Virus record (IMG/VR): IMGVR_UViG_3300021368_000646
Coordinates: 1-29,080 of that record
Reading direction: 5' to 3' (one strand)
From: a virus
Length of the DNA stretch: 29,080 nt
Position 1 is the first letter of the stretch, and each line of letters starts with the position of its first letter. Both the position numbers and the translations under genes were made by a program. The notes under the pieces were generated by a model. The model was not told the origin of the DNA. It ran no database searches and saw only the letters and a list, made by a program, of their open reading frames with translations. This document shows, in pieces, positions 1,702 to 23,600 of the stretch.

Positions 1702-2292
1702 TCACACGAATGGTGGACCGATGACCCAACCTACGATACTCTTCCTAATGCCCTTGGTAACTGGTGTTACTCTGTGAATAGTTTCAGATGGAAAGATTAC
1801 CATCTGTCCTCTTTTCTTTGGTGCCTTGTGTATCTTCACGTCAGGTTCATCACTAACGATACCATGACCAGTATGATATGCCAACTCTAAGTCACCACCT
1901 TCGTAGTCATCATTCAACAATACTGAGAATGATAGTTTACGAATGTATTTCTCTGTTGGATTTGCCAATTCAATATGATCACGATGCCATGAGTAATGAT
2001 CACCTTCACGATAACATGCATATTGAAATGCATTACCATGATACCAAGGACTCAAGTTAAACTTGTAATGCTCATCATTGACCATGTTCAGGTAATGCCT
2101 GAAGAAAGCACCAACCCACATTGGTTCTTTCAATAGTTTAACCTTTGTGGATCGTGATGGCACTTTACGATAGTCACCATTAGGATTGAAGACCATAGCT
2201 TCAGCAAAGTCTCCTGAAGATGGGTTATCAAGTTCTTTGATAATCTCTTCTAAGATGATGTCAGGTAGTTTCAGATCAACAAAACAATGCAT
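1702..2292 (-). CDS. 2OG-Fe(II) oxygenase 5, PKHD-type (196 aa)
   Basis: A complete PKHD-type dioxygenase. The HxD pair is H103/D105 in GDHYSWHRDHIELA; LNDDYEGGDLELAYH follows, then MVIFPSETIHRVTPVTKGIR with distal H173 and R183, and the terminal IVGWVIGPPF. It resembles oxygenase 2 most closely (shared DDYEGG and PVT-x-G-[IV]-RK), so the two may be paralogues, but the N-termini and loops differ. The start is coupled to the upstream 52-residue gene by TAATG. It is the last gene of the long block; a hairpin and a promoter follow it. Confidence 0.93.
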   Translation of the reverse strand: MHCFVDLKLPDIILEEIIKELDNPSSGDFAEAMVFNPNGDYRKVPSRSTKVKLLKEPMWVGAFFRHYLNMVNDEHYKFNLSPWYHGNAFQYACYREGDHYSWHRDHIELANPTEKYIRKLSFSVLLNDDYEGGDLELAYHTGHGIVSDEPDVKIHKAPKKRGQMVIFPSETIHRVTPVTKGIRKSIVGWVIGPPFV

Positions 2293-2450
2293 TACGAATC
2301 ACCGTAGATGGGAATAATATCAGTGCGACAGTGCTCGGTTTTGTTGATATGCTGCTCCCACAGAGCGGCATCGTCCAAATTGTAAAAGATCGCTTCTTGG
2401 CGGGATGTGCCCTTTTTCTTGCTCTTCATCCACACAACTGCGTACTTCAT
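2292..2450 (-). CDS. Overlapping small basic protein (52 aa)
   Basis: ATG at 2450 gives MKYAVVWMKSKKKGTSRQEA, then IFYNLDDAALWEQHINK and DIIPIYG. The composition and amphipathic pattern look like a real small protein: strand, basic turn, helix (LDDAALWEQHI), strand. The TAA at 2292-2294 overlaps the ATG of oxygenase 5 in a TAATG, the same coupling seen at three other joints here. It overlaps the previous gene by 131 bases in another frame. The longer frame starting at 2591 carries unrelated-looking residues before this ATG. Function unknown. Confidence 0.7.
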   Translation of the reverse strand: MKYAVVWMKSKKKGTSRQEAIFYNLDDAALWEQHINKTEHCRTDIIPIYGDS

Positions 2451-2631
2451 GATAAAACTGAGGGTAAACAACGAGATTAACATAGTGACGACCCCACCGT
2501 GAGTTAGCACTCTTGGGGAGTGGGATGTCTTTGAAACAAATAGTGATGTAATACTCACTAATGAAAGAGATATAACCTGTGATTTCCCCATATTTCACAG
2601 GTTGTAGCAACTCAAAATCAATCGGTTTCAT
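2320..2631 (-). CDS. Small conserved phage protein (103 aa), C-terminus overlapped
   Basis: Start ATG at 2631 (MKPIDFELLQPVKYGEI), preferred to the adjacent TTG. The first 60 residues (VKYGEITGYISFISEYYITIC, YVNLVVYPQFYHE) look like a small beta-barrel-type fold, familiar from short T4-like cyanophage proteins of unknown function. After VRSCVDEE the reading becomes low-complexity and unlike the rest, and this last part (2320-2450) overlaps another gene in a different frame. So the conserved body is about 60-65 residues with a tail of about 40 that is free to vary because of the overlap. Confidence 0.7.
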   Translation of the reverse strand: MKPIDFELLQPVKYGEITGYISFISEYYITICFKDIPLPKSANSRWGRHYVNLVVYPQFYHEVRSCVDEEQEKGHIPPRSDLLQFGRCRSVGAAYQQNRALSH

Positions 2632-2815
2632 CAAAATACTTCCGATCCTTATTCTCTGGTTTAGGGAGACGGAACATTTCCTTAAGATCGTTCAGATCAT
2701 TAAGTTGTTTTTGCAGGTTGTCAATTTGTGCCTGCAATTTTAGAAAGTTTTCATCGTTGATTCTTTGCATCATCAACATGTTTTCTACTGCTGATTTAAG
2801 ATCTTCTTCAGTCAT
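2618..2815 (-). CDS. Small coiled-coil protein (65 aa)
   Basis: An alternating heptad pattern (INDENFLKLQAQIDNLQKQL, then NDLKEM) marks a coiled coil over most of its length. I start it at ATG 2815 (MTEEDLKSAVENM); a TTG at 2824 would add MIT. No function is recognised. The gene ends inside the start of the following gene: the last codons (DETD) lie over the ATG at 2631, a 14-base overlap. Confidence 0.68.
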   Translation of the reverse strand: MTEEDLKSAVENMLMMQRINDENFLKLQAQIDNLQKQLNDLNDLKEMFRLPKPENKDRKYFDETD

Positions 2816-2820
2816 GGTAA

Positions 2821-3132
2821 TCAATAACGCTCTGGTATTTTATCATACTGTAGTTTTTTGACAAGCTCGGGATCATCAATAAATGGATCAACTTCACGGT
2901 TGCCCATCATCAAATCATACAAACCACGAGCACGACAGTATGCTTGTTCATGATATTGTATCACATCATTGACGCAAGATAGCATCTCTTCATATGTCTG
3001 TCGTGAAGATACTTTGTCATCTTGGAGATAATCATCAATCGCATCTTGCATACGATCTTTGCGTTGCTTTGCATAAGTTTTGTTCAAGAAGTCTTCAGTT
3101 CCTTTAAGTTCAGGGCGTCCTTCAATAGTCAT
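2821..3132 (-). CDS. Hypothetical cyanophage-type protein (103 aa)
   Basis: Not recognised as a function. The DDYLQDDKVSSRQTYEEMLS and VNDVIQYHEQAYCRARGLYD segments look like two long helices, and the style resembles short conserved hypothetical proteins of cyanophages (recollection, not a search). It is coupled to the previous gene by ATGA. Its TGA is followed 5 bases later by the next ATG. Confidence 0.7.
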   Translation of the reverse strand: MTIEGRPELKGTEDFLNKTYAKQRKDRMQDAIDDYLQDDKVSSRQTYEEMLSCVNDVIQYHEQAYCRARGLYDLMMGNREVDPFIDDPELVKKLQYDKIPERY

Positions 3133-3320
3133 GAATTAAACTCTTCATTACGACGGCGGTCAAGGTATTCAATAATTTCACCACGCCACTCTAGCAATTC
3201 ATGATAGCATTGCTGATCATGTGCATCTTGACGTAGTTCATGATCTGGTTTCAACACACTCTCATAAAAGATGAAGAAAGCATCTTTGCGTTTTTCGTGT
3301 TTGGTTGTGTTCCAGTCCAT
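3129..3320 (-). CDS. Small hypothetical protein, helical (63 aa)
   Basis: Not recognised. Predicted mostly helical and rich in Lys, Glu, Asp and His (EKRKDAFFIFYESVLKPDHE, EIIEYLDRRRNEEF). ATG at 3320 follows the only sizeable gap in the small-gene block. Its TGA overlaps the next ATG in an ATGA motif, which supports real translation. Confidence 0.65.
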   Translation of the reverse strand: MDWNTTKHEKRKDAFFIFYESVLKPDHELRQDAHDQQCYHELLEWRGEIIEYLDRRRNEEFNS

Positions 3321-3388
3321 GTAATTGTAGCGTTACTCAGGTATTTTAGATGGTTATGTGTGGAAATCCACGTTTCCTAATAATTTCT
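3321..3388 (-). promoter_or_regulatory. 68-base intergenic gap with a weak promoter-like element
   Basis: Reading on the minus strand, TAAAATA (3342-3348) resembles a -10 box or a degenerate T4-type late element, 22 bases before the ATG at 3320. There is no convincing -35 box (GTGGAT at 17 bases). A short self-complementary GTGGA-TCCAC pair lies at 3360-3371. A secondary promoter for the five following genes is possible but weakly supported. Confidence 0.25.
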
Positions 3389-3658
3389 TCACGATTGAGG
3401 TCCCCACCCATCGTTCTCAGGGACACAATCATCATCGTCCACACGGTCAACTGATGCAATGTCACATACTGGCACCTCATGCTCACCACCTACAAGATAC
3501 CATGGCATAGTCTGTCCATGATACTCTGGATGTGCTTGATAGTCTTCAGGATAAACACGATCACCGAGATACATTAGTTCGCTTTCGGGGATAGTGTTGT
3601 CTCGTAACATTGCTTGCAGCTGCAAGTGCGTCAGTTCATATTGCGTAGGTACTTTCAT
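3389..3658 (-). CDS. Hypothetical protein, acidic C-terminus (89 aa)
   Basis: Not recognised. It starts with a helical N-terminus (YELTHLQLQAMLRD), has a central region rich in Tyr, Pro and His (YPEDYQAHPEYHGQTMPWYL) and ends in an Asp-rich tail with DDDDCVPEND. The start overlaps the preceding stop by one base (TAATG), which supports it as a translated member of the operon. After it comes a 68-base gap, the largest in the region. Confidence 0.65.
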   Translation of the reverse strand: MKVPTQYELTHLQLQAMLRDNTIPESELMYLGDRVYPEDYQAHPEYHGQTMPWYLVGGEHEVPVCDIASVDRVDDDDCVPENDGWGPQS

Positions 3659-4182
3659 TAGGCATTCTTGATGTTGAAAGAGATGATCACACGTTCTGAA
3701 TCAGATTTTACTGCCTTGCACTGGTGTGTCAAGACAGATGGGAAGAACACGATGTCTCCCTCACTGACCTCAGGGACATACTCTACCACATCACCCTCAA
3801 TGAAGTCAACAAAAGGAGCGAAGAACGACGTTGGTTGGTGGTCACTCTCTAAACTGGCATAAAAAATAGCACTATATCCTAATGCTCCATGATTATGGGG
3901 TGGGTGATAACCTCCACGAGTATACTTCTGCGCCCACATATTATAGATCTCAAAATCAAATGGATATATCTCATTGAATTCTTTCAATGCAGGTTCAAGC
4001 AATTCAAACATTTTTTCTGTGTATGGAGCAAGCTTACCTTCTTTATAATATTTGAAGTAGTCTGTAAGGTGTCCATCACCATCTTCAAGATCTAAGGATG
4101 AAATTATATCATCTTTGTGATCACTCCAATTCTCAACTGTAGCAGTGAAAAATGGAACTACAAATCCATTAGCAATTTTCAT
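3658..4182 (-). CDS. 2OG-Fe(II) oxygenase-like protein 4 (HxH variant, 174 aa)
   Basis: Matches the 2OG-Fe(II) oxygenase family with an HxH-type first motif (Pfam 2OG-FeII_Oxy_5 style): MWAQKYTRGGYHPPHNHGA with H93, H96 and H98, YSAIFYASL, then VSEGDIVFFPSVLTHQ with distal H153, and R164 in SERVIISFNI. The second Fe ligand is not the usual Asp: position 98 is His, so either H96/H98 serve or another acidic residue does. It differs from the four other oxygenases here by lacking HxD/HxE at this site. ATG at 4182 overlaps the previous gene by ATGA; its TAA overlaps the next ATG (TAATG). Confidence 0.82.
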   Translation of the reverse strand: MKIANGFVVPFFTATVENWSDHKDDIISSLDLEDGDGHLTDYFKYYKEGKLAPYTEKMFELLEPALKEFNEIYPFDFEIYNMWAQKYTRGGYHPPHNHGALGYSAIFYASLESDHQPTSFFAPFVDFIEGDVVEYVPEVSEGDIVFFPSVLTHQCKAVKSDSERVIISFNIKNA

Positions 4183-4562
4183 TCTTCTGGTCTATTTCTC
4201 CCTGGTCGTAGAGCATTGTTATCATATTCAATGACACCATCTGGTCTTACAACAAAACATTGATACCAATATGTGTCATCATCAACTTCATCCTTGCGAG
4301 GGAAATAATCCATCACAAAGTCTTCTGCAATTTGAGGAGTTCTAAACTCAATGTATCCATAATACTTGCTCTCCATCAAAAGAATAACTTCTGGTGGCAT
4401 TTCTTCATCAAGTTTATAGTAATCAATGACAATAGACTTAGCAGCATCATCTGCTGCCTCAAGTCTTGGGTTCTCCCAGTATACTAGAGCACCAGCATTT
4501 GCAGCGGCTTCCTCAATTTGATCCCAATCTCTAGCACTATCAAATGTCTGTAGGTTCTCCAT
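4179..4562 (-). CDS. Acidic hypothetical protein (127 aa)
   Basis: Not recognised. It is acidic, with an N-terminal helix (residues 8-24), an alternating strand-helix middle (VILLMESKYYGYIEFRTP, IAEDFVMDYFP) and a tail of Pro/Arg. The GYIEFRTPQIAEDFVMDYF segment reads like one beta-alpha unit of a small alpha/beta domain. The ATG at 4562 lies inside the end of oxygenase 3 (23-base overlap) and has AGAGGA upstream. It ends in a 4-base ATGA overlap with oxygenase 4, so it sits inside the oxygenase cluster and could be an accessory to it, by position only. Confidence 0.75.
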   Translation of the reverse strand: MENLQTFDSARDWDQIEEAAANAGALVYWENPRLEAADDAAKSIVIDYYKLDEEMPPEVILLMESKYYGYIEFRTPQIAEDFVMDYFPRKDEVDDDTYWYQCFVVRPDGVIEYDNNALRPGRNRPEE

Positions 4563-5073
4563 CGTTGTCCTCTACTTTCTTTAATTTATATGCGGCAGTT
4601 ACTCTAATGCCATAAAACTCTCTGGTAGTATCCTCTGCCCAGTGATACATGTCAGATGGGAATAGCACACATGACGCTGGTTTAGGGAATACAGTATCAT
4701 ATCTACCATCATCTTGTACAAAGATAGTCTTTCCACCCCATGTGAGATCCCACACAGGATTACAAAACACTAAGAATGTATAATCTGCATCATCAACATG
4801 CATTGATCCATCCAAACCTCTAGTGTGACCATTCATGTAATAGTCTAAGATTTCAAACTTAAATGGAATTAAGATCTCCATCTTCTCAGGAATGACACTA
4901 TCAAAGATACCATATCCTTTGATATCCATCTTCCAGAACTTTTTATGCAATGCTGATTCACTACTAGTAGCACCAAATTGCCATCTAGGACGACTAGCAA
5001 TTTTATCAATCTCCTCCATTTCCTGTGGAGTAAGAATAGTATCCCAAGATTTAATATCAGTAAGTTTGCTCAT
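4540..5073 (-). CDS. 2OG-Fe(II) oxygenase 3 (177 aa)
   Basis: A compact dioxygenase with intact catalytic pattern: H92/D94 in GSMHVDDADYTFLVF, then GGKTIFV, a conserved VLFPSDMYHWAED with distal H144, and R157 in GIRVTAAYKL. It lacks the LNDDYEGG strand of the PKHD pair, so it belongs to another branch of the superfamily. This subtype is frequent in cyanophage structural regions; its target is not known. Start ATG at 5073 has a good Shine-Dalgarno (AAGGA, about 6 bases upstream). Its 3' end overlaps the next gene by 23 bases. Confidence 0.88.
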   Translation of the reverse strand: MSKLTDIKSWDTILTPQEMEEIDKIASRPRWQFGATSSESALHKKFWKMDIKGYGIFDSVIPEKMEILIPFKFEILDYYMNGHTRGLDGSMHVDDADYTFLVFCNPVWDLTWGGKTIFVQDDGRYDTVFPKPASCVLFPSDMYHWAEDTTREFYGIRVTAAYKLKKVEDNDGEPTDI

Positions 5074-5074
5074 A

Positions 5075-5722
5075 TTAGTTCCTTAATGTAGTGTGATGTC
5101 TAATAATACCAAGGCGAGCAAGATCAAACTGGGTCAATACTTCTCTATCTAAATCACCTTCCAGTTTCCAGTATACTTTGTTTAGTTCAGTAATATAATA
5201 TCTCATGGTTGAATCAGAGATTGAACTCTCTAACCAAAATGTGATACACTTCCTAACACCATTTGTGACTGGTCTTACACCATGTACAAAATGTGTGGGA
5301 TAAACTAAAGCTTTACCAGCAGGTAGTTTCTTCTCAATAGTTTCTGTACCAACTTTGATGAAGTGTTCACCACCTTCATAGTCATCATTCAATGTGATAA
5401 CAACTGTGTAATCAGTTCTACATCCCCACATTTCATAATAATCTGTGTGGTCATCATAATGCTGACCCTCCTCATACTTCAACAAAAAGCATGGTGAGCA
5501 TTTATTCAAAGGATGCATCCTAAACAATTCTGTTTCTCTTAGGATCTTTGCAATACTCTGATTAACGATCTTATTGATCTCTATATCATCTTGCTGAGTA
5601 TTATCTTTTACGTGCTTTTCCTTTGGTCCAGTAGCAGCACCATCAATAAACTTACCAGAGTCAAATAGACTCATCATTTGTCTTAGTCTGTTTTTATCTA
5701 AGAAATCATACTCATAAATCAT
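5075..5722 (-). CDS. 2OG-Fe(II) oxygenase 2, PKHD-type (215 aa)
   Basis: A complete PiuC/PKHD-type dioxygenase. Key residues are the HxD pair H92/D94 in GQHYDDHTDYYEMWG, then LNDDYEGGEH, PAGKALVYPTHFVHGVRPVTNGVR with distal ligand H147, and the 2-oxoglutarate-binding R157. Members of the superfamily hydroxylate protein or small-molecule substrates using O2 and 2-oxoglutarate; the substrate here is unknown. The last 45 residues extend past the catalytic core. It overlaps the previous gene by ATGA. The last codons hold AAGGA, a Shine-Dalgarno for the next gene. Confidence 0.92.
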   Translation of the reverse strand: MIYEYDFLDKNRLRQMMSLFDSGKFIDGAATGPKEKHVKDNTQQDDIEINKIVNQSIAKILRETELFRMHPLNKCSPCFLLKYEEGQHYDDHTDYYEMWGCRTDYTVVITLNDDYEGGEHFIKVGTETIEKKLPAGKALVYPTHFVHGVRPVTNGVRKCITFWLESSISDSTMRYYITELNKVYWKLEGDLDREVLTQFDLARLGIIRHHTTLRN

Positions 5723-6051
5723 TGCATAACCTCAACATAAGATTTAATATAATCATCAACTGCTCTCTTGTATCCCTCATGAATAGATGGAAGAGGAGCA
5801 CACATATTAACAATACTATCAAATCCAACTAGGAATGAATTATCTGAAGAAAATCTCTTCCATGGTTTATATGTCACGCCCAGTTGATTTACATCAATTT
5901 GACCTGAAGATTTGATGGTAAAAGGATATACTAGATTATAGCAGACTTTTTGCTGTACACCATTTATTTCTTCAATATGATCTTTTACATTAGCAATCAA
6001 CTCCTCCCCCGTAACAAGAGTGAGAAGGAGAATATTAAGTTTTTGTTCCAT
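5719..6051 (-). CDS. Small conserved cyanophage-type protein, Sm-like pattern (110 aa)
   Basis: Opens NILLLTLVTGEELIANVKD, continues NLVYPFTIKSSG and YKPWKRFSSDNSFLVGFD, then P-S-I-x-x-x-Y. This beta-strand order (strand, G-E-x-x-I-A-x-V, then P-F and W-x-x-x-x-x-D) is a pattern I associate with small conserved phage proteins of possible Sm-like fold. The fold assignment is tentative and no function is known to me. It starts 2 bases after the chaperone-like gene and overlaps the next gene by 4 bases (ATGA), so it is part of the same polycistronic unit. Confidence 0.75.
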   Translation of the reverse strand: MEQKLNILLLTLVTGEELIANVKDHIEEINGVQQKVCYNLVYPFTIKSSGQIDVNQLGVTYKPWKRFSSDNSFLVGFDSIVNMCAPLPSIHEGYKRAVDDYIKSYVEVMQ

Positions 6052-6053
6052 GA

Positions 6054-6908
6054 TTAAACGTTATTACTATTAAGAGCTGCTAGGAGTGCATCAAGTTCTG
6101 CTCTCTCATCAGGATACTGAGCAGAGTAATCAGCAGGTTTCAATGCACCATGTACAATTTCGTCAGGATTCTTGATTCTATAGTTAGAAGCAATGGTCAA
6201 ACATACTCTCTTGACATATTCATCCCATACACCTGGGACAAATCCACCAAATTGATCATCTGTTTGTAGATATGCATTACCTGCATATGGAGTATTACCT
6301 TCAGCATCCTGATATTGTACATATCTAGAATAAACAGTAGGATTGATTGGATACTTTACCTCATCAGATCCTTGACCACTGTAATCAGAAGGAATATCTC
6401 TAAGTTTCTGTCTGTATGCAGTCCACTGTGCTTTTACTTCATCACTAATTTGTGCGTCTGGCATTTGAGTCCAGTCACATTCAGATAAGAGATAGTTCCT
6501 GACTAGTCTAACACCTTCCCATGATGTTTTCTGCCATCTACCATACTCATCATATAGTTTTTCTGCAACAGTTTCTTGTGCGCTGTCTTTGTACTCAAAA
6601 TACTTCTCTTTGAGTTTCTCAGCAATGTCTGCTACTTCAGCGTCAGTCGCTTCTCTCCATTCATATGTTTTCCATTTTCTTTCTTTAGTAGCACGATCAT
6701 AGACGTACTTCTTCTTCTCAACACCATAAGATCCATCACTGAAATAATTCAAATGAATCAAGCGGTCTTTATCAGATGACCAAAATGGAAAGAGCATAGG
6801 TTGGACATTATCATTCCACCATGTCTCTTCAATAAATTCAGTCTTACCATCTACGATGATAACTCTTTCTAGTGCATTGACTTGCACTACTACACGGATG
6901 TCTGCCAT
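6054..6908 (-). CDS. Tail-fibre assembly chaperone-like protein (284 aa)
   Basis: Residues about 130-180 contain RNYLLSECDWTQMPDAQ, then WTAYRQKLRDIP, the signature of phage tail assembly chaperone domains (Pfam PF16778 type), which occur in proteins that help fold or attach tail fibres. The N-terminal 130 residues (opening MADIRVVVQVNALERVIIVDG, Trp-rich, then acidic/lysine-rich helices) and the C-terminal 100 residues are not recognised. The family usually carries this short domain at the end of a larger protein; here it is central. Placement immediately after four adhesin genes fits a role in their assembly. It starts 4 bases after the preceding oxygenase, with no clear Shine-Dalgarno. Confidence 0.8.
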   Translation of the reverse strand: MADIRVVVQVNALERVIIVDGKTEFIEETWWNDNVQPMLFPFWSSDKDRLIHLNYFSDGSYGVEKKKYVYDRATKERKWKTYEWREATDAEVADIAEKLKEKYFEYKDSAQETVAEKLYDEYGRWQKTSWEGVRLVRNYLLSECDWTQMPDAQISDEVKAQWTAYRQKLRDIPSDYSGQGSDEVKYPINPTVYSRYVQYQDAEGNTPYAGNAYLQTDDQFGGFVPGVWDEYVKRVCLTIASNYRIKNPDEIVHGALKPADYSAQYPDERAELDALLAALNSNNV

Positions 6909-6912
6909 TAGA

Positions 6913-7530
6913 TTACGGGAGTTTTAGAAACCAGCCTGTCGCAATATATTTATCATGGGTGAAGACAGTGTTCCCACGATGTACATGTGTCATCCCTGCT
7001 GGCCAGATTAATAATGTGCCTGTCTGTGGTTTATATCGTTTCTTTTGATAGAGAAATTCAGTCTCTGCCTCACCATCAGGCATGTCGTTCAAATATACCA
7101 TCCATGCTAGTTCTCTGTTTGCTGCTCTGAAACTACCATTCTCATAATGCCAAGTATGATAACCACCACCAGGAGAGGTTCTCTGTACTTTCAATCCAAT
7201 AGAATTTAGATTTGTTTTAAGATGATCATACTCTTGCTTGTAGTTTCCAAACGCAGTATTCAAATACTTATAGAAATGTGTTGCCAATCCCATGTCAACA
7301 TCATCTAGCATGATGCTAACATCATGTCTAGCAAGTTTCTTATCTGGCATCTGATCTTTACCATGCTGTACAATCTCAGGATTGATATCAATATACGTGT
7401 CAAAGTTTTTTACGATTGCAGCACAAATATCATGGTGTACAAATCTCCTGTACACACCAATAAAGTCTTCAAACTGTCCTTCAATCCTATCAGGATCAAC
7501 AATAAATCCACACTCACTTGCTGCTAGCAT
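6913..7530 (-). CDS. 2OG-Fe(II) oxygenase 1 (HxE variant, 205 aa)
   Basis: A 2-oxoglutarate/Fe(II)-dependent dioxygenase of prolyl-hydroxylase-like fold. The core is QRTSPGGGYHTWHYENG with candidate ligands H128 and E130, then WMVYLND and the distal WPAGMTHVHRGN with H182, followed by KYIATGW, where K194 may replace the usual Arg that binds 2-oxoglutarate. The usual second ligand is Asp (HxD); here it is Glu. I chose the ATG at 7530, which overlaps the upstream TGA (TGATG), over the TTG one codon earlier. It follows the glycine-rich adhesin directly, so adhesin modification is a natural idea but is not shown. Substrate unknown. Confidence 0.85.
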   Translation of the reverse strand: MLAASECGFIVDPDRIEGQFEDFIGVYRRFVHHDICAAIVKNFDTYIDINPEIVQHGKDQMPDKKLARHDVSIMLDDVDMGLATHFYKYLNTAFGNYKQEYDHLKTNLNSIGLKVQRTSPGGGYHTWHYENGSFRAANRELAWMVYLNDMPDGEAETEFLYQKKRYKPQTGTLLIWPAGMTHVHRGNTVFTHDKYIATGWFLKLP

Positions 7531-10500
7531 CAATACGCCCTGATCAAATACTTCACTAGATGATAGCGTGTTAAGAGAGGAATGTCAATCTCTGGTGATA
7601 AAGTTGAAGAAACATTTAATTTAACAGCAGATGACAGTGTAAATGTACCTTCATTGACATCTAAACCAGCAGAATCAATAGGATTACCTTGTGGTTCAAT
7701 TCTTTCTGTGACAAATTCAATACCTAAGTCAGCTCTTGCTTGTGGATAAGTAGCAATCTCAACCTCTGCTTCATCATATTCAAACTGAACCCAATCAATG
7801 CCGAAGTTATCTCCTCCAGCATTTCCACTTGAACTTCTAACTTGTCTTACTTCTAACAATAAGTTATTAGTTTGGAAATCAGATGGAATTGCAACATCAA
7901 CTATTGTCCAATCAGTAGGACCACTAGCAGATGATATAGTACCAATCTTAGTATAACTGCCACCATTATCATTACTTGCAAATAATTCTAGTGGTTCTCC
8001 TGGTGCTTCTCCACCATTACTACCATTACCACGTATTACTCTCCATTTAGAATTGATAATTGGTGATTGCTTACTATTACTAGGAGATGCATTAATGGTG
8101 ATTGTTCTCGCCCATCTTACTGCTTCACTTCCAAAAAATCTGAGATATTTCTCATTATCTGTAGAAGTAAATCCACCTGCAGATCCAGATCCTGTTCCAG
8201 ATTCAATGTAATCTACAGTTGTACTAGCGAGATCAAATAATCCAGCAGTTGTAGTTGTACCAGTACCGCCGCCAACTGATTGTTCAATATAGTATCCGAC
8301 TTCACCACCACCATCTTGTCCTGATGCGCCACCACCAGATCCATTATTACCAACCTGAAGTGTACCAGCATTTGGATTAGTTAAACCACTAGCTTCAAAT
8401 TTGAAATAAATTGTAGCGCCTGATCCACCGCCACCACCACCAGCACCTTGTGTGGTGATAGTATTAGTAGCATACATTGTAACGCTACCACCGCCACCAC
8501 CCTGAGAGTTACCTGCGGGATTGTTTCCACCGTTTCCTGCACCAGTAGAGCTTGAACTACTGACAGTTGGACCAGAACCAGAGGATTTGACAGCAGATTG
8601 TCCTCTTTTAGCACCATATCCTGCTCTACGTGCATTAGATCCGTTGGATCCACCGCCACCACCACCAATACCAGATCCTGTACCAGCGCCGCCTCCGCCG
8701 CCGCCTCCGCCACCACCAGAGCAGACAGCGTTACCGCCACCACCACCAGATCCAGCGAAGATACCACTCAATTGTTGGACACCATCTGTATTGTTGGGTT
8801 GACCATTCATGTCACTAGTAGTGGATGAACTGTTACCACCTGATCCACCGCCACCACCACCGCCAGCGCCAACTAGAACAGTGTTTGTAGTACCAACTGA
8901 CGAAGCACCACCACCGCCGCCTCCGCCGCCAGCACCGTTACCTGCTCCACCGCCGCCACCGCCAGCATATCCAGAGGGACCACCTGATCCACCACTATTT
9001 CCTGATCCTGGACCTCCACCAGCACCAACATATACTCTTAAAATACCATTATTGCCAGTCTGTAGTTCAGCATTGACTCGTTTACCAGCACCACCTTGTC
9101 CTCCTTTGTGTGATGAATTAGTAACACCACCAGCGCCGCCACCACCACCACGTACTTGACAGGTAACACTCTTAAGACTACCGCCAGAAGGAATATTATA
9201 TGTTTGGAAACTAGTTCCAGTATAACTAAACGTTTCGTTAGATAATACATCTTCTGTAAAGGTATCAGCAACACCATCTCCACCTTTTCCATAGAATAGT
9301 GTACTAGATCCACCAGTGCCACCAGAACTAGATCCACCATTGGTTCCAGATTGTCCAGCAATATATCCAGAGAGCTCTAGACTCACACCACCTGCAAGAT
9401 TAAATGTTCCATTTCCAGTAACAGTTGTAAATGAACCATTTACACCATATCTTACATTACCACCTGATCCACCGCCGCTGCCATTATTTCCTGATTGTCC
9501 ACCACTACCTCCACCTGCTCTAATTGCGTAAGTATTTCCAGCATACGAGAAAGTATAGGTGGTATTTCCACCATTACCACCACCATTAGTAGTGTTACCA
9601 CCAGATCCACCAGCACCAGTTAAGTTACCACCGATAGCAAGAATTGGAACTTCATCTGCATCTGGTGCTGGTACTGTATAAGTTCCGTTACTGTTTTCAC
9701 TTACTTTTATGTCAAGATTGGTAGTAGTATCTCCTGGTATCTGAACTGTCTTTCCACCAATAGTGTAGTTATCATCAATATCCCATGTTGTAGGATTTGG
9801 AGTTGTGATAATACTAATAACTTCTGCTGGTAAATTACCAGCAATCTGATATCCTGTTTCAATAGTAATTTCACCAGAATTACCACCATTTGTAACTACA
9901 AGTGCATTTGCTGTTAATGCTAAGTATTTTGATGCTGCTAATTTAAAGTTGTCATCGTCTATCTTAATAACCCACCAGGTACTTTGTGCTGCAAAATTAA
10001 CACTTACACCATTAACACTAAATGACAGTGGTGTTGATTGTGAGTTTGATACAACACGAATCATATTGCCAGTGTTTAGATCATGTTCTTGGACATTAAA
10101 GATACCATCAGCACCGATTTGAGATTGTGTGAAAGTAGCAAAGAACTTCTCACCAATACCACCAACGTTTCCGTATGTGGAGAGGTTAGGGTCTTGTATA
10201 ACATAATCAACAATACCATGTGCGTGGAATAGTGGAACTCCACCAGATGGTAAGAAGAAATTAACCTGACCATTACTATCTTTAAATCCAACAGCATGAT
10301 CGTCAACTGGTCCACCACCACCTTCAAATGCACCAGCCTGAGGAGCACTAGATGTTAAAATAGCATGTTCGTGTTCTGGAACAGCAGAGATCATCTTCTC
10401 TTGTAGTGGTCCAACTTGGATTGTTACTTCACCACTTAGTGAACCACCAACAAATTCAGTAACATTTGTGTATCCACTAATAATAATATTTCCAATATCA

Positions 10501-13487: not shown

Positions 13488-14681
13488 TTAGTAAGCTCTG
13501 ATGATCATGATTACGGTCTGTGATGGAGTGTTATTATCCATAAGAATATTTAACGCATCTGGAATATCAGAAACATTGACCGTATAAGATTGTACGTTGT
13601 TGACAGCGATATTTGGTGGAATTTTAAGACCACCCATATTCATTGATAAATCAAAACTAAAGTGACTGTGTGTAGTTAGACTCTTATCGGTAGAATCTTG
13701 TGCAGCGTGACTTAAGTTAGTAGGAAAAGTTGTTCCTGCATTACCACCAATATAATTATCCTTACCAAACAGTTTTATAGGAGGTGGGAATACACCTGTA
13801 TGCATTTTCATATGGTGTTCATAATTATAAGTATCACTAAAGTTGGTTGTATATGCACCACTGGAAGGAATAGTTCTTGACAATCCAATTTCTGGAACTG
13901 TTGAATCTGATGCAGGGAAAGACTTAGCTTCACTAGTTAATACTAGTGTATTTTCATCATAGTATGTAATTGCACCAAATCCATTTTGCCAAGTATCTGG
14001 ACTATCTGTACTGGTAACACCAGTCAAGTTTGCAGATTCATATCCAGGACTACCAGAAACCTGGAATGTTGGTGCTTGGAAAATCTGAACATACTTACCA
14101 CTTGGAAATGCAGTTGTGTATTGTCCAGAGTGTTTGTGACCAGGGGTATGGTCAATACCAAGTTTTCTACCAATTGTATAATATGTTTTAGACCATGTAG
14201 GATCATTCAAGGTAATGTTTTGAATTTTACCTGCCATGGTATCAATTGGATCTAATTCAAATCCAAGATCAGTATCTGCACTATAAATTGTGGGCGGAGT
14301 AACGGAAGTTCCATCACCCTCAACTAAACTTCCAATAACACTGTATGCATCAGGTTGATTTGCATAATACTTTTCTTCCAGTAACATGTCTTTTTCAAGG
14401 TCAAGCAACTGCCTACCATTTAAATTAGGAACTCGGAATAGATCTCCCTCATCAAAATTTGGAAAGTTTCCAGTAATGGAATCTTCAGTAGGACCATATG
14501 TATTTCCTATCATAGATGCCAACAAAGGAAATAATGCACAATCATATGTTCTACCATCACAAAGAATCCACCCAGTAGGAAGATTGTCTGGATTATTTCC
14601 AGTGCTTTGATTTCCACCCCAGGGCATGATAGTGCCGACTGGGGCAGACTTCATCGTCTTTAGTCTGTTATAGAAAGCCAT
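13488..14681 (-). CDS. Tail-collar-domain protein 1 (397 aa)
   Basis: Residues about 14-90 match the phage tail-collar domain (Pfam PF07484 type): GTIMPWGG, then LPTGWILCDGRTYD, FPLLASMIGNTYG and FRVPNLNGR. Tail-collar proteins form trimeric fibres or fibre tips on phage baseplates. The rest carries two HxH motifs (H182/H184 and H338/H340) and a third His cluster (289-294), the pattern that binds zinc in T4 gp12 and iron in the T4 gp37 tip. It ends in the hydrophobic C-terminus IMIIRAY, shared with the 1,403-residue protein. The ATG at 14681 overlaps the stop of the giant gene (TAATG), implying translational coupling. No strong Shine-Dalgarno is visible. A virion adhesin or short-tail-fibre role is inferred. 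Confidence 0.88.
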   Translation of the reverse strand: MAFYNRLKTMKSAPVGTIMPWGGNQSTGNNPDNLPTGWILCDGRTYDCALFPLLASMIGNTYGPTEDSITGNFPNFDEGDLFRVPNLNGRQLLDLEKDMLLEEKYYANQPDAYSVIGSLVEGDGTSVTPPTIYSADTDLGFELDPIDTMAGKIQNITLNDPTWSKTYYTIGRKLGIDHTPGHKHSGQYTTAFPSGKYVQIFQAPTFQVSGSPGYESANLTGVTSTDSPDTWQNGFGAITYYDENTLVLTSEAKSFPASDSTVPEIGLSRTIPSSGAYTTNFSDTYNYEHHMKMHTGVFPPPIKLFGKDNYIGGNAGTTFPTNLSHAAQDSTDKSLTTHSHFSFDLSMNMGGLKIPPNIAVNNVQSYTVNVSDIPDALNILMDNNTPSQTVIMIIRAY

Positions 14682-17600
14682 TATAGTTCAGTTAACCACC
14701 AACCTTGATAGACAGCAGGAATAAAGTTGTCTCCATCAGTTGCACCAACATAAATTAATCCGAAGGAAGCATTTTTGTTTTGTACAACTAGTTCACCAGA
14801 TCCATATGCTGTAGAGAGACCTCCAAGTTTTGTACCAACAGTATCACCTTGGAGAGGTACAGGTTCACCACCTACGATTGGAGCACGAATCACGAGAGAA
14901 TTATTATATGTCAATGCTCCACCAACTTCAGTAATTCTAATAACATCGCCTGTTACAGCGTTGGATGGTAGAGTCAAGATGAGAGCACCTGTAGATGGAG
15001 CTACTGCTACAATATAATTTATATTAACAGCGAGAGTAGCAGTTGCGTTGATGAACTTCGTAATGTGACCACCATTGATGTTCTTGTATGCCGTCAATCC
15101 AAAAGCATTGATGGATCCATCTTGCATAATGGTGAAGTTATTAGCACCATTGACACCTAGATTTCTGACATCTAAGATTGGTTGAGTAGCAGCTGGAGCA
15201 GCAGAAGAAATGCCAGCAACATCAAGTAAGCGACCAACAAATGTATCACCAAACTCAGCTTCAACTCTGAACGTTGGTTCAAAAGTCTTGTTAGTAAATT
15301 GGATAGCATCAGGGTCCTCAACACATCTAGAAGGAACAATTCTTAGGTTGCCGCTGATATCAGTTGGTGCATTGATATCAAGTGCGCCACCCTCAAAGTG
15401 GTGTTCTTCGTTGTTGAGTAGTTTGATGATAGGTACATTGTTATCTGTACCTGTAATCTCAAAGTTTGAACCAACAAACTTAACATCATCATAAACGGTA
15501 AGTCTACCGTGATGATAGTTTGTTTTGACTAGTTCAATTCCACCATCGTTTGTAACAGTGTTGGAAACCAAGAAGATTTCATTATCAATTGCCAACCAAT
15601 ATTCACGATCAAGGAAGAATGGAACAACATCGCTATTCTCTAATCCAACCTTAACAGCAGTAGATCCAGTTGCAGGGATATCATTTGTAAGTGTAGTATT
15701 TTCTCTGAAGAGAACACGGAATACACTTTCACCATCACTATGTGTCTGGTTTGATCCAGGAACATTTGTCAAGGATGCTACACGAGTAACAGGTAAGTTA
15801 CCAGCAGGTGCAATTCCACTTGCTTGAGGATTTCCACTGATTTGCATGATTTCTTCTTGACCGCCAGATCCAAATCCAACGAAGATGAAATCGTCTTTTG
15901 CAAAATTGGTAATGTCATCAACAGGTAGTGTTGTAGCACCAGTGCCAATTGTACCAGTAGTATTAACAAATGTAGTTGCAATACCGTTGTCTACTTTTGG
16001 ATCCTTGAAGATCGTATATACTGTTGCACCCTTAGTGTGTGCTTCAGCTGTAGTTCCATACTGAGATCTAGTTGTGAAGATCTCACCACTAGGATTACCA
16101 ACTACTACATCACCAGAACATCCATCAACAGTAAAGATGTCGCGAACTTTATCAGTAATTCTAAACTTCTCATCTCTAGTTGCGTTAAAGCTGATTCCAG
16201 TTTGATTACCAGAACCACCAAATGCTAGGTTCAGTGTAACTGTGCTGGTAGCAGTATTAATTGCAACAATCTGTGGATCAACGAATCTTGTACCGCCAGT
16301 TTCTGCAGGATACTGATTCTGATCTAGTGTTACAGTACCACCATTATCAACCAGTTCAACATAATCACCAACTTCTAGTCCATCAAGTGAAGGAATAGAA
16401 GTGATTGTGAATTGTCCCTCAATCGCGTTACCAGTGAATGTCTGAGCAGATGCAGTCTTACAACCACCCTTGAATTCAAACGAACCATTGATAGTTAGTT
16501 TTCCATTCTCTCCATCAGCACCGTCGTTACCAATGATTGTCTCACCAGTGACACTATCAACAATGAAGACTGTATCACCATTTGGACAACCATTAGTGAT
16601 TTCAAACGTCTTATTGACAATTTCTAGAGCAGTTGCTAACTTAAATGCTTCACCCTGGTTGAAGTCTCCGTCAGTGTTGGTATCTTCACGAGAGATGATA
16701 ACGTAGTCAACTCCAACATTAAGTGTTCCACCAAACGTTGCTAGATATACATTTTCTTCAGCAGATGCATCTCTTGTTCCATCAATTGCCTGCTCAATCC
16801 AAGTAGCATCAAATGCAATGTTACACTTGTATACTGGAGTTCTGTTTCCAGGCTCATCTGGGTGAGTGTCAATTTGAGGAGCGAAAGAACCAAGTGGTTC
16901 TCTCTCAACAGTTAGGTAGTATGGAGCAGTTTCTGCACCACTTAAACCACCAACCGCAATACGAACAATTTCAGGTCTTGTGTTATTACCTGCATCAACA
17001 GGAGCATCAAGAATTAGATAATCACCCTCATTGAAGTAACCAGCAACAGGTTGATTTAATACTGGTAAGTAATATTGCTTACCTGTTAGTGCAGGTAGAT
17101 CTGCTCCTTCAGGACCAGCGCCAGGTTTAACTGACTGGAATGTTGCGTCACCCCAAGATGCAGAACCAGCGGTGTCAATTCTGTTGTATCTGTTATCCGA
17201 AGATGGTAACTGAAGAACATTGACGATATCAATATTTTGATTAAAGGAGGAAGGTCCTAGGATACCAGATGCGTGAGCAATTGCAGTTGTTCCTAGAGAT
17301 GCACCAACACCAACAAAGGAGAAGGAAGAAGTACCACCACAGAGTTTAACACTCGCATTGAATGTAGTCTCACCATCAACTTCAAGACTGTTTCTGATTG
17401 TAGTTGTACCACCTTGACCAGCGATGTTAACTTCAGAAGCATTCAGAGCAAAGTCAATTGTCTGAGTATTTCCAGAGAAGAAGCTAACAATACCTGCTTC
17501 AGTTGAAATGGTTACAACCTGCTCAGGATTGGTTCTATCACCACCAAGTTGCTTAAATGAACCAAAGGTTACATCACCTGCAAACTTAGTTCTTTTAACT

Positions 17601-20600
17601 TCAAAGTCAACGAAGGATAGGGATTCAACACGATTATATGCACCACCAATTGTTGTCTTAGAGATTGCAGCATCTTGATCAATGTTACCGATAAAGATGT
17701 TAGAATGATTAGCATTGTTGCCAATGTAAACAAACTGATCACCAGTAGACTTATCACCAACATAGATCCACTGAGTAGAAGTGGTGTTAAAGTCTCCAAT
17801 TCTTAGAGTCTTAGCATAACCACCAATGTGCAATCCAGCGGTGTTATCTCCTCCAACAAATGTGCTGTCGTTGAAGAGGTTAACAGTTCCAGTTGTGATG
17901 TCAGTTCTGACTTCAGCAAGTGTGCCGTCACCCTGAACTTCAATATCACGCTCAAACTGTACATCCTCAGTGAATCTTGCATCACCTTTAACAACTAGTG
18001 CTCTATTGAGTTCACTATCCTCAACATTAACACCAACCTTACCTTCAGCAACTGGTCTACCACCCTCTAGTGGGGTAGAAGTTTCAGTAGAAACTCTCAA
18101 TACTGCCTCATCATTAGGAGCAGCACTGTCACCACCAACAATCAGAGCATCCTTAATTCTATTCTTATCGCGATCAGCAAACTGAGTATGCTGTAGATAA
18201 TCAGGTGTCTTACGACCACTAATGTATGCATTACCAACAACGTCAAGGTTTGCACGAGGATCAGTTGTTAGATTCTCAACAAATGCATTTGCATATGCAT
18301 CATGAGAAGATCTGCAGATGGTGTTAATACCAAGTTTGTAATCACCAATAGTTTCTGTCTCAGTTCTGAGTGCCTCACCACCAATGATACCAACTTCTTT
18401 GAAGTTAGCATTAGAGAATTCAATAGTTGGTTGATCAGCACCACCAGGAGTTCCAGAGATGATATTTTCCCAAGGTTGTGTATCCTGTGGAATTTGATCA
18501 ATAACTTGGAAGTGGCAGTAGTTATTAGTTGGGTTGAATGGATCACCAGGCTTGGCAGCATATACTGTCCAAGTTAGATTCAGTCTAGGATCATAGTAGA
18601 AGTTCTTGATTCTAATCTGAGATGTAGAGGTAATTCCAATGTCATTACCAACTGCAAGTGCAACACCACTTGTAAAGTCTCTGAATTCAATCTTAACAAC
18701 ATTTGATCCATCAAAGACGATGTTATCAATGCTATTGTTAGCAATATTTGAGAAGTAGTTAGATAGGATCCATGCGATAGATCCATTCTTACCAACCTCG
18801 GATCCTTTGAATAGAACATCACCAGGAGCAGGTAATACACCACCATAAGTGATATACTGTGCAGCTGCAATTCTAGTGCCACCATTAGCAATTAGTGGAG
18901 TCTGATTAGGAGTAATGTTAGATGCAACACCAGCAGTAGTGTGCGTCTGGAACATGTAGCTCTGACCATTTCCTCTAGCGTTGAACTGGAAGATAGCAGA
19001 ACGAATTCTGTTCTTGCTTAGTCTGATATCACCCTCAGTTGGAGGAGCGAAGGAAGTTCTATCTAGACCCTCATCTTGTTCTAGTTGAGTTACAGGATCA
19101 ACAGAAGATACGTTGGAACGAATGATTAGAGAATCACGAGATTGTGTTAGATCCTCATCTTGAACTGCAATGATTAAAGGAGATTCAAATGTGTTGACGA
19201 GTTCTCCATCACCACCAACAACAGTAATATTTTGGTTAAAGGTTACAGGAGTATCAAAGGTGGTAACGAGACCTCCAATTGTATCATCCTCGTCTCCATC
19301 ATCATCTAACGTTGCTCTATCAATGAATGTCTCTTCACCAGTGATAGCGTTGATTCTTCTGTTACCGATATACAGGTCACCCTGAGAGTTAATACCAGTG
19401 TAGAAGACGATACCACCGTCTTGTTTCTTACTTTGTGCGTAGAAGTCCTCATCAGGTGTTAGGACAACTTCCTGACGCGCTGGGAGACCAGTGGAGTAGT
19501 TACCAGGACCGAAACCAAGGTATTCAAACGTGTGGTTACCAGCACGAGCGATAGATGGACGACGGAGTTCAACGTAATAACGCTGATCAGATAGAACTGT
19601 GCTGTTACCAGCGATAGGAATACGACGATCTTCAGAACCAGAGGTAGCATTACCATCTTGTGCTTTAATGGCATTTGTACCACTATAAGTGTTCATGATA
19701 AATGCTGGTTGATTTGTTAGATCTTCCATAAGTTCTCTGGTTACAGAGTTCTTAAAGTCGTTAACAGAAACCAGACCGTGGATGTAGTTATCAGCAGCAG
19801 AGAATGTAGGTGGTGGATCAATTAATCCAGCGTAGTAATCCTTCTCTGATTGTGTTGTACCAGAGTTCTTAAACCAGAGAGGATCATTTCTGAAGTTGAG
19901 AGGATATAGTTTGCTGACTGGCTGAGAGAACTTAAACTTCTTAAAGTTATTTGTTACACCAGCACCAGTTGGGAATGGCGAGATATTACCACGGAGTGCG
20001 GTAATATAGTAGATACCATCTTGCTGACCAGCGATTCTACGCTGTAGTGTTTCATATCCAAAGATGTAGAAGGTGTCTTCAATGACGCCTGCATCCTCAA
20101 CACTATCAACATAGTATTCAACACCAGCATCATCCTGAATCTTATCACCAGGGGTGATAGTATAAACGTTAGCGCCGTTTTGCTTGTAGAAAAACTCAGG
20201 ATTATTTTTTGCGATTTGAGTCTTCAGAGGTAGGGATTTGCCCATATCCTGATCCTCAAGCATGTCAGCGAAGACAGTGCCCTGAGTAAATCTTGTGTTA
20301 GCATATTCACTATACTCAAGTTTACCACCACGGATGTTCTTGATGATGATATAATGCTCACCACCAACAGTGTAATATGCGTGGATATTAGCAAGACCAG
20401 AGGAATTACCAGCAAAGCTTACTGCGTTTACAGAACTTGCTAGATTTTCAGTCTTACTGACTTCAAAGTTACCACCCTGAGGAGCAGTGATCTTAACAGT
20501 TGTTAGGATCTCATTTCTCAGACCAGGGAAATTCTTAGAATCAATTGTATGATCATTGACTGTGATCTCAAGATACTTAATAGAAGGATCTAGGTTGTCT

Positions 20601-23600
20601 TCAACATAACGACCAGATTGAATAGTCGCTTGTACACCAGAGGAGAATCTTGCAAATGCTCTGTATTCAATACCAGATCCAGTTTGATCTTTCTTATATG
20701 GATCATACTGTGCTTCTACATTAAGATTATTAGAAGTAAAGTCTGCAGAAGTGTAACCAATGAATTCACCTGCTTGTACTGGGTTCTCAAAACGAGCACC
20801 ATATACTGTACCAACAACTGGTTTCAATAGAACTTTCTGTGGTACTAATTTACGAGTATCGTCAGTTCTTGTCTTAAGAACGAAACCACTAATAGGATCT
20901 CTAGCATTCTCAAGATACTTAGGAATGACCATACGAATCTTGTATGTTCTGTCATCCTTACCACGATTATCTTCTAGACGTTGATACCACATATCAGTGG
21001 ATCTTTGTCTGTCATTATAATCAGACTCATTGATTCTCCAGAAGATATTATTCTTCTTGACGCTATCAGGTTGTCCAGTAACTTCATCCTTACACTGAAT
21101 GAACCACTTACCTGTATCGGTAGTAGCATCAGTGAATCCAGGATCAAATCTCATTGGAACACGACGCTTGTTAGCAAAGACATCAAAGATTAGTCCTGCT
21201 TGACCAGATGCAAATACAATTGGATCAGCATTGTTGATTGCATTAGCGTAAGTTTGGTGCAATGTAAAGGTCTTATTGTTCTGATATCTTGCGAAGAACT
21301 CAACCTTTGGATTAATTCTACCAACGTTAGCATCATTAGGATCAGTAACGGCAACATTAGGATTGTTAGCAAACTGACTACCTACTAGTGGTAATTGTCC
21401 ACCTTCAATTGATCTGATGAATACTTTCTGAGCTTCACTGGAAGATAGAGATGCAGATGGTTTGTCAAAGATATGAGAAACGTCTGTTTCAATACCAGCA
21501 ACAACAGAAGTGCTCAAAGATCCCTTATAGTTGTGTAGATCGTACTTCTCATCTAGGATGAATTGGTACATATCAATTTCAACATCAGAGTCAATACTAT
21601 CTGTCTCAGATGCGTAGATATAGATACCTGCTGCAGCGTTCTCTTTAGAAGTTGCGAGCATCAATCTAGTCTGATCACTGCCATCAAAGAACGAAGTGCC
21701 GCCATAGTTTTCTGGTTGTGTTACTCTACCAGGAGCGATGACATAGTAAGTTCTATTAGTTTCAAATCCATTAGGTAGTCTGACAAGACGCTTATCAACG
21801 TCAACATACTTACCAGTTACAGTATCAAAGCGAGGACGTGGTACAAGTCTGACTGGAGTTCCAGTCTCAAACTTATGTGGATCAGATGGGTTACCACCTG
21901 TATCAATGGTGAATACAGTAGCTCTAGATGCTAATAGTGCAGTATTAACTGTCTGTTCTTGTCGTACAACTGTTCCAAGACCACTGTTGATAATAGTAGT
22001 GATGTTGCCAACTAGAGTTTCAATAGCATCTGCAGTACCAGAACACTCTCTATAAGATGGAGAGGTTAGAGTATCTTGAATGACTTCAGGACCATCTGCC
22101 TCAGGACCAACAATTACAGTATCTGGTAGTGTATCTGCCCAAATACCCTTAGAGTATACAAAGTAGAGGTCAGTCGTGCTGCTAGTCTGTAGAGCATTGA
22201 CTGTGTTACCTTCATTCAATCTAGAACCATTAACACCAAGTTCAACCTGTGTATTACTTACGATTCTCTTGACATAAGTTCCCTCAGGAATATTGGTATA
22301 GATTGGAGTTGCATTATCCTGTAGAAGTCCATTGACAAATGCTGGGTTCGCAGGATCTAACTGACCTCTAGAGTTTTCATATTCAACAACACTCATACCA
22401 ATGATGATACCGCGTGTATCATTGACATCAATAATTGCAGAACCAGCAGTTGTAGAACAATCAAATCCTAGAACGTCAAAGTTTCTCATGGCAGCAGTTG
22501 CCATTTGACCAACGTAATCCCATGCGTCTAGAGTTTCAGTCTTCTCACCATCAATGTACTCTAAACTGTTGCCAACATAGTATGCTTCACCTGCTTGGAT
22601 GCTGTTGATGTTACCACCAAGTCTGAGGTCATTAACAATAGCGTCAACAATGTAAGTAACGTCACGGAAACACTTAGATGCTTCGTTGTTGATTGTAAAG
22701 TCACCTGTATTGAGAGGAGGTAGACCAGCAAGTGTACCACCAACAATTGCATCCTGTAAGATATCAAACAGTGTCTCAATAGATCCACGAACGTTTGCAC
22801 AATCCCACTCACCATTGTTTAGAGGTGGTAGGTTGTCAAGGTTGCCATCATTGAGGGAGTTGCATGTGATGTCAATCAGTGCGTTGACAGTAGCTAAAAC
22901 GTCAGAGCAGTTACCATCTGCATATGCAGCAGGTCTATACTTACCAGCAGATCTAGGATATGCATGAGTAGTTACGTTCTGATCCTTAGTACACTTGAAG
23001 ATGAGAGATTCATCCTTAAGTTTGATACTAGTTCCAGCTTCAAGATTATGGTTACCAATCGTCAAAGCAACAGAACCAGAAGCAGGATCATATACTGCGT
23101 TAGATACATTCCACTCTACTAGAGGAGATGTACCAACATTAATACTAATGCTATAATCAGTTACGGCAGCAACTTGAATATTTTGACCAGCAAAAGGATC
23201 ACTACCAGGACGTGGATATGTCTTAGTAATTGGAGTTCTTCCCATCTCACAAGAGAATGTGAAGGAGTTATCATCTAGAGAAATTTGATCACTGGTTGTT
23301 ACACCATGTGCAGTACCGAAATACAACACCATCAGACCAGTAGTAGCATCATATGTTGCATTAGTTGGTGTTAGTTGACCACCGTTCAATACATTAACTG
23401 CACCAGCTGCAGCATTTACAAATGTATGTGGATAATCTCCACCAGATACTACAGCGCCAGCAGTTGCAGCGATGAATGTATGTGGGTATTGATCCTGTGA
23501 TGCAGATGCGCCAACATTAATTGTGATAGATGTAGCGGTTGTGCTAAGAATGTTGAGTGGAGTATTCCATGCAGGATCAGGACCGTCAGGAGTAGTTCTA

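Follow-up and report, generated by a model that had tools for sequence, protein, structure and literature searches.

A 29,080-base fragment of a viral genome (IMG/VR virus record IMGVR_UViG_3300021368_000646; here called the window) was found to carry a gene for a 2-oxoglutarate (2OG)-Fe(II) oxygenase, which we label E, between the genes for a glycine-rich collar-domain adhesin (Coll3) and a tail-fibre assembly chaperone (TAP). Two further oxygenase genes, D and C, lie downstream of TAP. We propose with moderate confidence that Coll3-E-TAP-(D-C) is a fibre-maturation cassette of T4-like cyanophages, in which E, probably together with D and C, would hydroxylate the adhesin while it is assembled with the help of the chaperone. 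The closest DNA relative of the window was Synechococcus phage S-RSM4 (Kyanoviridae, Gibbetvirus), with 70% identity across 68% of the first 8 kb, and the window is a fragment of a T4-like Synechococcus cyanomyovirus near S-RSM4.

The genes in question lie on the minus strand. In reading order, from right to left, they are giant (a very large fibre-like adhesin), Coll1, Coll2, Coll3, E, TAP, a DUF6561 protein, D, C, h127, B and h89, followed by small open reading frames (ORFs) and the fifth oxygenase gene, A (Table 1). The order from giant to B is the same in S-RSM4. The likely start of E is an ATG at 7530 that overlaps the stop codon of Coll3 (TGATG), and the genes after E overlap or sit a few bases apart. 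Because of this tight packing the run Coll3-E-TAP-DUF6561-D-C-h127-B-h89 looks like a single operon. A preliminary description of the window had placed five oxygenase genes directly after four adhesin genes and next to a chaperone-like gene. Four adhesin-type genes do lie upstream (7530-29047), and TAP lies between E and D, but the five oxygenase genes are not contiguous, A standing apart from the packed run beyond several small ORFs.

The position of E was compared in the window and in 18 named relatives, from about 15 genera, that have the adhesin cassette. In the window and 17 of the 18, E sits between Coll3 and TAP; the exception, S-WAM2, is without E, D and C together. D comes after TAP in 17 of the 18, with the DUF6561 gene intervening in S-RSM4 as in the window (the only two places where this gene was recognised), and C comes after D in those 17 relatives except ACG-2014h and S-H9-1. 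A profile search of environmental contigs with E gave 80 loci. Of these, 61 scored at least 240, a cut between locus copies and others that was chosen after inspection of the data, and the 19 lower-scoring copies lie elsewhere. TAP is next to E in 61/61 of the higher-scoring loci and a collar-adhesin gene precedes E in 60/61; the median gap in the environmental loci is 3 nucleotides on either side of E. The slot is kept even though identity drops to ~37% for E and to 16-20% for TAP. On an 84-tip TAP tree, presence of E needed two changes (e.g. one loss and one regain) compared with 16.5 on shuffling. On a tree of E, locus context needed 3 label changes compared with 30.4 on shuffling, with some interleaving: the pair L231/L242 from other contexts falls inside the locus copies, and the group L209-L226 also falls among them. 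D and C form a near-inseparable pair, as 39 contigs with at least five downstream genes held both in 31 cases, D only in 2, C only in none and neither in 6.

In six genomes with collar adhesins, 22 of 58 oxygenase genes were located in the adhesin locus (taken with five flanking genes per side), against 4.2 expected. The suggestion in the preliminary description of an oxygenase set that hydroxylates fibre proteins is supported to this extent: at this locus oxygenases and adhesins are linked, through the slot of E, the pair D and C, and the excess just given.

Other arrangements of oxygenase and adhesin genes were also seen. An oxygenase gene lies directly 5' of giant in four of the six collar genomes, S-PM2 (165172), S-CAM1 (74194), S-H9-1 (30970) and ACG-2014h (20175), so that the adhesin array in these four is bracketed by oxygenases; the window ends before the corresponding place. 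Two contigs, L208 (7989-9772) and L221 (7146-8926), have E-like, C-like and D-like oxygenases side by side, preceded by an ORF of ~525 amino acids and one of >1800 amino acids, with no recognisable chaperone. In P-SSM2 (AY939844, 27.1-28.3 kb; L046, 9621-10770) a PF16778 chaperone and a 2OG oxygenase are paired a second time, separately from the cassette, and a giant-like ORF of 1908 amino acids comes next. P-SSM2 has hardly any collar set: among eleven relatives chosen as being without this locus no collar set was detected apart from one weak match in P-SSM2, yet oxygenases were present.

The catalytic residues of E are intact. H129, E131, H185 and K195 are invariant in 80/80 sequences (61/61 locus copies and 19/19 others). 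The Lys lies ten residues past the distal His, which is the spacing of collagen prolyl 4-hydroxylase (P4H), an enzyme that carries Asp; an HxD metal motif is typical of the P4H family. The AlphaFold model of E, with a predicted local distance difference test (pLDDT) score of 89.4, has a double-stranded beta-helix fold. Its best Foldseek match was the PBCV-1 chlorovirus collagen prolyl hydroxylase vCPH (PDB 5c5t; 5.8e-10; template modelling scores 0.66/0.74). The closest structures were mostly peptidyl-prolyl hydroxylases, namely vCPH, Pseudomonas putida P4H (PDB 4iw3, solved with EF-Tu), PHD2 and Bacillus anthracis P4H, and the third match was PolD, an oxygenase of Streptomyces cacaoi. By sequence, E matched B. 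anthracis P4H at 5e-7. The modelled fold of E is prolyl-hydroxylase-like, above all like that of the chlorovirus enzyme; since all 80 sequences are HxE, we name E prolyl-hydroxylase-like and not a P4H. E is under purifying selection, with a ratio of nonsynonymous to synonymous substitution rates (dN/dS) of about 0.07-0.26 among close relatives; C, D and B gave comparably low ratios, dS being near saturation.

The five 2OG-Fe(II) oxygenase genes of the preliminary description all exist as minus-strand ORFs with Pfam matches, and its motif classes (HxD, HxE and HxH) were confirmed from the sequences: HRD in A, HNH in B, HVD in C, HTD in D and HYE in E, each with a distal His. A, D and E scored above the PF13640 cut-off and B above that of PF13759, while C fell slightly under the 27-bit cut-off of PF13640 (24.6 bits, 5e-5) and was recognised also by its fold. 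The HxD/E...H metal triad is present in A, C and D (HxD) and in E (HxE). B has HxH...H instead, with H96, H98 and H153 invariant in 11 aligned relatives, and belongs to PF13759 by profile; the solved members of this HxH family, 3bvc and 2rg4, are both without an assigned function. Metal residues were invariant in the alignments, which took in B, C, D and E, A being a single sequence. By profile, and for C also by fold, A-E are assigned to the 2OG-Fe(II) oxygenase superfamily.

The nearest solved structures to the AlphaFold model of C (pLDDT 92.3), which like that of E is a double-stranded beta-helix, were Sbal_3634 (3dkq)/PiuC, P. putida P4H and PHD2 by Foldseek. C residues H92, D94, H144 and R157 are invariant in 34 sequences. 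All 34 match the NCBIfam FlmC family 2OG oxygenase, C itself at 44.8 bits, below the 240-bit cut-off; a literature search found nothing on the function of FlmC. The D profile matched the solved PKHD proteins Sbal_3634 (2.5e-41) and PiuC (1.3e-36). The equivalog cut-off of 143 bits for PKHD-type hydroxylase PRK05467 was missed by D (118.6, a distant relative) and by A (51.8), which is distantly PiuC-like.

Coll3 is the most likely client of E. It contains 20.4% Gly, and two HxH motifs in its collar region (amino acids 457-459 and 506-508) are invariant in 28 Coll3 sequences. A search of the collar region against PDB by sequence returned no match to T4 gp12. We suggest that Coll3 would bind the receptor as a glycine-rich protein with a collar domain and, judged from other short tail fibres, would form trimers; its distal part would be held by TAP while it folds. 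E would be translated directly after Coll3 and ahead of TAP, and would hydroxylate one or a few residues, proline most likely, of nascent or chaperone-held Coll3. The conserved prolines P318, P367, P445, P455, P1383 and P1388 (window numbering) are candidate sites. Hydroxylation would set the folding, stability or receptor binding of Coll3, and D and C would probably target Coll3 too or else a neighbouring fibre protein. Gene order and its conservation, intact catalytic residues, fold and purifying selection are computed results; a protein substrate, its identity as Coll3, proline as the modified residue and the coupling of the step to the chaperone are inferences. There is a precedent for the chaperone step in Pam3, where the fibre is clasped at its glycine-rich distal part by the chaperone gp25 (PMC9608196). 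More tentatively, the adhesin, a dedicated HxE prolyl-hydroxylase-like enzyme and the chaperone may constitute a three-part maturation device, such that infectivity would depend on O2-dependent hydroxylation of the fibre.

Several observations weigh against a maturation role for E. An environmental search started from the E-less chaperone of S-WAM2 gave 62 loci, 7 with E between the collar-adhesin gene and TAP and 54 with the collar-adhesin gene directly before TAP; in these 54 contigs the S-WAM2 lineage retains Coll3 and TAP without E, D and C. The preliminary description had looked to co-occurrence of oxygenases with adhesins, which held for E in 17/18 named relatives and 60/61 environmental loci and failed in these 54 adhesin-chaperone pairs. 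Comparison of 14 Coll3 sequences from loci with E and 14 from loci without it showed no domain loss in the latter, with the same regions, composition and Gly content, and the idea that adhesins lose a domain or composition feature upon loss of E was rejected. The adhesins of L286 (with E) and L299 (without E) are 57% identical over their aligned length, gaps counted. No Coll3 column pointing to a hydroxylation site tracks E: three columns (S, F and D) are diagnostic of its presence, and the reverse control, for its absence, gave 19. Since adhesin and chaperone persist in the S-WAM2 lineage in the absence of E and with no domain change, E is dispensable for that architecture. E also has Glu where known prolyl hydroxylases carry Asp, none of the 80 sequences having HxD, and the hypergeometric p of 5e-12 for the 22 of 58 oxygenase genes overstates the case, related genomes not being independent samples. 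In a census of 131 oxygenase genes in 12 complete relatives, evaluated with circular-shift controls, oxygenases were not enriched 1-2 genes away from ORFs of 700 amino acids or more (p 0.37-0.75), and only a weak signal appeared at 5-10 genes from ORFs of 1000 amino acids or more (p 0.015-0.03). A general tendency of oxygenases to lie beside large structural genes was rejected; the oxygenase-adhesin link is specific to this locus. Finally, in the papers searched there was no mass-spectrometry or biochemical support for hydroxylation. Taken together, E is an old, nearly fixed partner of the cassette, yet a dispensable one, and any effect it has does not show up in the domain make-up of the adhesins.

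Host-directed modification is the main rival to hydroxylation of the fibre, given that one structure close to E was determined with EF-Tu bound. E, D and C would then act late in infection on a host protein, e.g. EF-Tu, a ribosomal protein or a protein of the surface, and the fibre operon would serve only for timing. The presence of many cyanophage oxygenases at other loci is in keeping with this. Timing alone, however, leaves the exact slot of E between adhesin and chaperone in 60/61 contigs unexplained, and we consider a host target unlikely.

Alternatively, the region next to the tail fibres may gather small cargo genes, so that the oxygenases would have no functional tie to the adhesins. 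A high number of oxygenases is ordinary in these phages: the 12 relatives carry 7-14 each, and S-SCSM1 has been published with 24 2OG-Fe(II) oxygenase genes (PMC9602691). Oxygenases cluster wherever they are found, 44 of 131 having another within two genes against 11.8 expected. Although five in 5.8 kb compares with a Poisson expectation of 0.35 (P 3e-5), clusters of 5-8 within 5.8 kb occur in four of the 12 relatives, so that a count of five is normal for these phages, and such 5-8-gene clusters also lie far from adhesins (e.g. Syn9, 37-44 kb). In S-RSM4 (NC_013085, 89.3-95 kb; L049) about 5.7 kb contain eight 2OG oxygenase genes, at a distance of four genes from a giant-similar ORF of 2921 amino acids.

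Cargo accumulation suits A and B well. A was seen at this place only in the window and the near-identical contig L164, while a few genomes have related genes at a distance of 5-14 kb from the cassette, and B was found in only part of the relatives. The earlier view of the five enzymes as one set, each with its own target, is not supported by this distribution. A probably does not belong to the cassette, and the best explanation for A and B is that they are part of a general, mobile pool of cyanophage oxygenases and not fixed cassette members. Cargo picked up at random would be expected to come and go, as is the case for A and B, whereas E is nearly fixed in place over deep divergence and D and C nearly so. 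For these three enzymes we regard accumulation without function as improbable.

Hydroxylation of a nucleoside, sugar or envelope component by these enzymes was considered in view of PolD being the third structural match of E and of the below-cut-off match of C to the FlmC family. Peptide hydroxylases make up most of the close structural neighbours of E, and neither a glycosyltransferase nor a nucleotide-sugar gene turned up in the cassette; small-molecule or glycan chemistry is quite improbable. Drainage of 2OG or nitrogen sensing has been proposed for cyanophage oxygenases generally, on the basis of their number together with NtcA sites (Sullivan et al. 2010, PMC3037559). It predicts neither the position nor the family identity nor the conservation of one enzyme between adhesin and chaperone, and we hold it to be very improbable here.

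Least probable of all is AlkB-like DNA repair or base oxidation, which has been proposed for Syn9 oxygenases adjoining uvsX/uvsY (cited in PMC2984593) and is echoed in the public label 'DNA endonuclease V' of the C family, but no repair gene was recognised in the window and C has a 2OG oxygenase fold without an endonuclease V domain. Other cyanophage oxygenases lie near a DNA polymerase-sized ORF and may fit a repair role. The label of C (phrog_274) was examined and rejected, PF13640 being its sole Pfam match; as both fold and motif are those of a 2OG oxygenase, the public name is wrong. It is attached to C orthologues in many RefSeq cyanophages, and two further families matched by these enzymes have labels that likewise look doubtful, 'ferrochelatase' for phrog_3531 and 'DNA endonuclease' for phrog_2297.

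Table 1. Genes of the adhesin array, the packed run and oxygenase A in the window
Feature	Position	Strand	Evidence
giant, fibre-like adhesin, 4788 amino acids, first in adhesin array	14681..29047	-	ORF; S-RSM4 orthologue of 4482 amino acids in same place
Coll1, collar-domain adhesin, 397 amino acids, short-tail-fibre type	13488..14681	-	PF07484 1.7e-11; phrog_4591 5.5e-81
Coll2, collar-domain adhesin, 580 amino acids	11743..13485	-	PF07484 3.6e-7
Coll3, Gly-rich collar-domain adhesin, 1403 amino acids	7530..11741	-	PF07484 5.4e-8
Oxygenase E, 2OG-Fe(II), HxE...H...K	6913..7533 (ATG likely 7530)	-	PF13640 41.7 bits
TAP, tail-fibre assembly chaperone, 284 amino acids	6054..6908	-	PF16778 4.9e-16, 58.8 vs cut-off 26.6 bits; phrog_4697 1.5e-51
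DUF6561 protein, 110 amino acids, between TAP and D	5719..6051	-	PF20198 28.1 bits vs cut-off 27
Oxygenase D, PKHD/PiuC-like, HxD...H...R	5075..5722	-	PF13640 50.5 bits
Oxygenase C, HxD...H...R	4540..5073	-	PF13640 24.6 bits; model; Foldseek
h127, small protein of no assigned role, between C and B	4179..4562	-	S-RSM4 orthologue in same place
Oxygenase B, HxH...H, variable member	3658..4182	-	PF13759 49.3 bits
h89, small protein, closes packed run	3389..3658	-	phrog_2020 5.7e-27
Oxygenase A, HxD...H...R, outside packed run	1702..2292	-	PF13640 64.4 bits

Further features of the window were recorded. In giant, amino acids about 736-1560 contain five repeats around CxRDxG that resemble the chromophore-binding region of phycobiliproteins, the best being amino acids 990-1052 (PF00502, Phycobilisome, at E 1.2e-10; phycoerythrin alpha was matched weakly, at 0.079). 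No T4-type late promoter TATAAATA was found in the window. An exact 24-base repeat, CCGTGTATATTAAGAGAGTCAAAG, occurs on the minus strand at 167-190 and 1636-1659, shortly upstream of two ATGs; its 22-base core was found again in nine other loci, and it is probably a promoter or leader element. Positions 438-968 encode a conserved protein (phrog_6927, 1.3e-79) with no Pfam match.

Multiple oxygenases in cyanophages, with nitrogen/2OG and DNA-repair proposals for them, were known. A literature search, with many subscription papers outside it, found no report of the fixed adhesin-oxygenase-chaperone order or of hydroxylation of a phage virion or tail fibre. The fixed order in many genera gives one of the abundant cyanophage 2OG oxygenases, hitherto filed as metabolic genes, a concrete candidate substrate. 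If hydroxylation of Coll3 by E were borne out, this would be, as far as the search showed, the first phage to hydroxylate its own fibre and the first prolyl-hydroxylase fold on a natural 2-His-1-Glu iron centre. Phage fibres would join collagen, HIF and EF-Tu as targets of prolyl-hydroxylase-type enzymes, and fibres made in Escherichia coli would be without their native modification. Virus maturation would be tied to O2, Fe(II) and 2OG in a photosynthetic host, and to the oxygen and iron supply of the ocean.

Among known systems, E shares its fold, the two His and one acid of the metal site and the Lys ten residues past the distal His with PBCV-1 vCPH (5c5t) and the bacterial P4Hs of B. anthracis (3itq/5hv0) and P. 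putida (4iw3). It differs from them in having Glu for Asp, in an identity of 16% and in the location of its gene between adhesin and chaperone. D covers nearly the whole profile of the PKHD-type family of PiuC, YbiX and Sbal_3634 and shares its HxD...H...R (1e-36 to 2.5e-41), but it scores below the equivalog cut-off and lies in a phage fibre operon, not in an iron-uptake context; A is partly similar (51.8 bits). The other cyanophage 2OG-Fe(II) oxygenases belong to the same superfamily, with many diverged copies per genome. In the portions of PMC9602691 and PMC3037559 covered here they are treated as metabolic genes, with no mention of a fixed adhesin-chaperone position, and their function is stated in the former to have not been experimentally tested. 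In T4 (gp37/gp38), Mu and Pam3 (gp24/gp25) a gene for a fibre with a Gly-rich distal part is likewise followed close by by a PF16778 chaperone gene, whereas the cyanophages described here have an oxygenase gene in the space between them and retain it across relatives.

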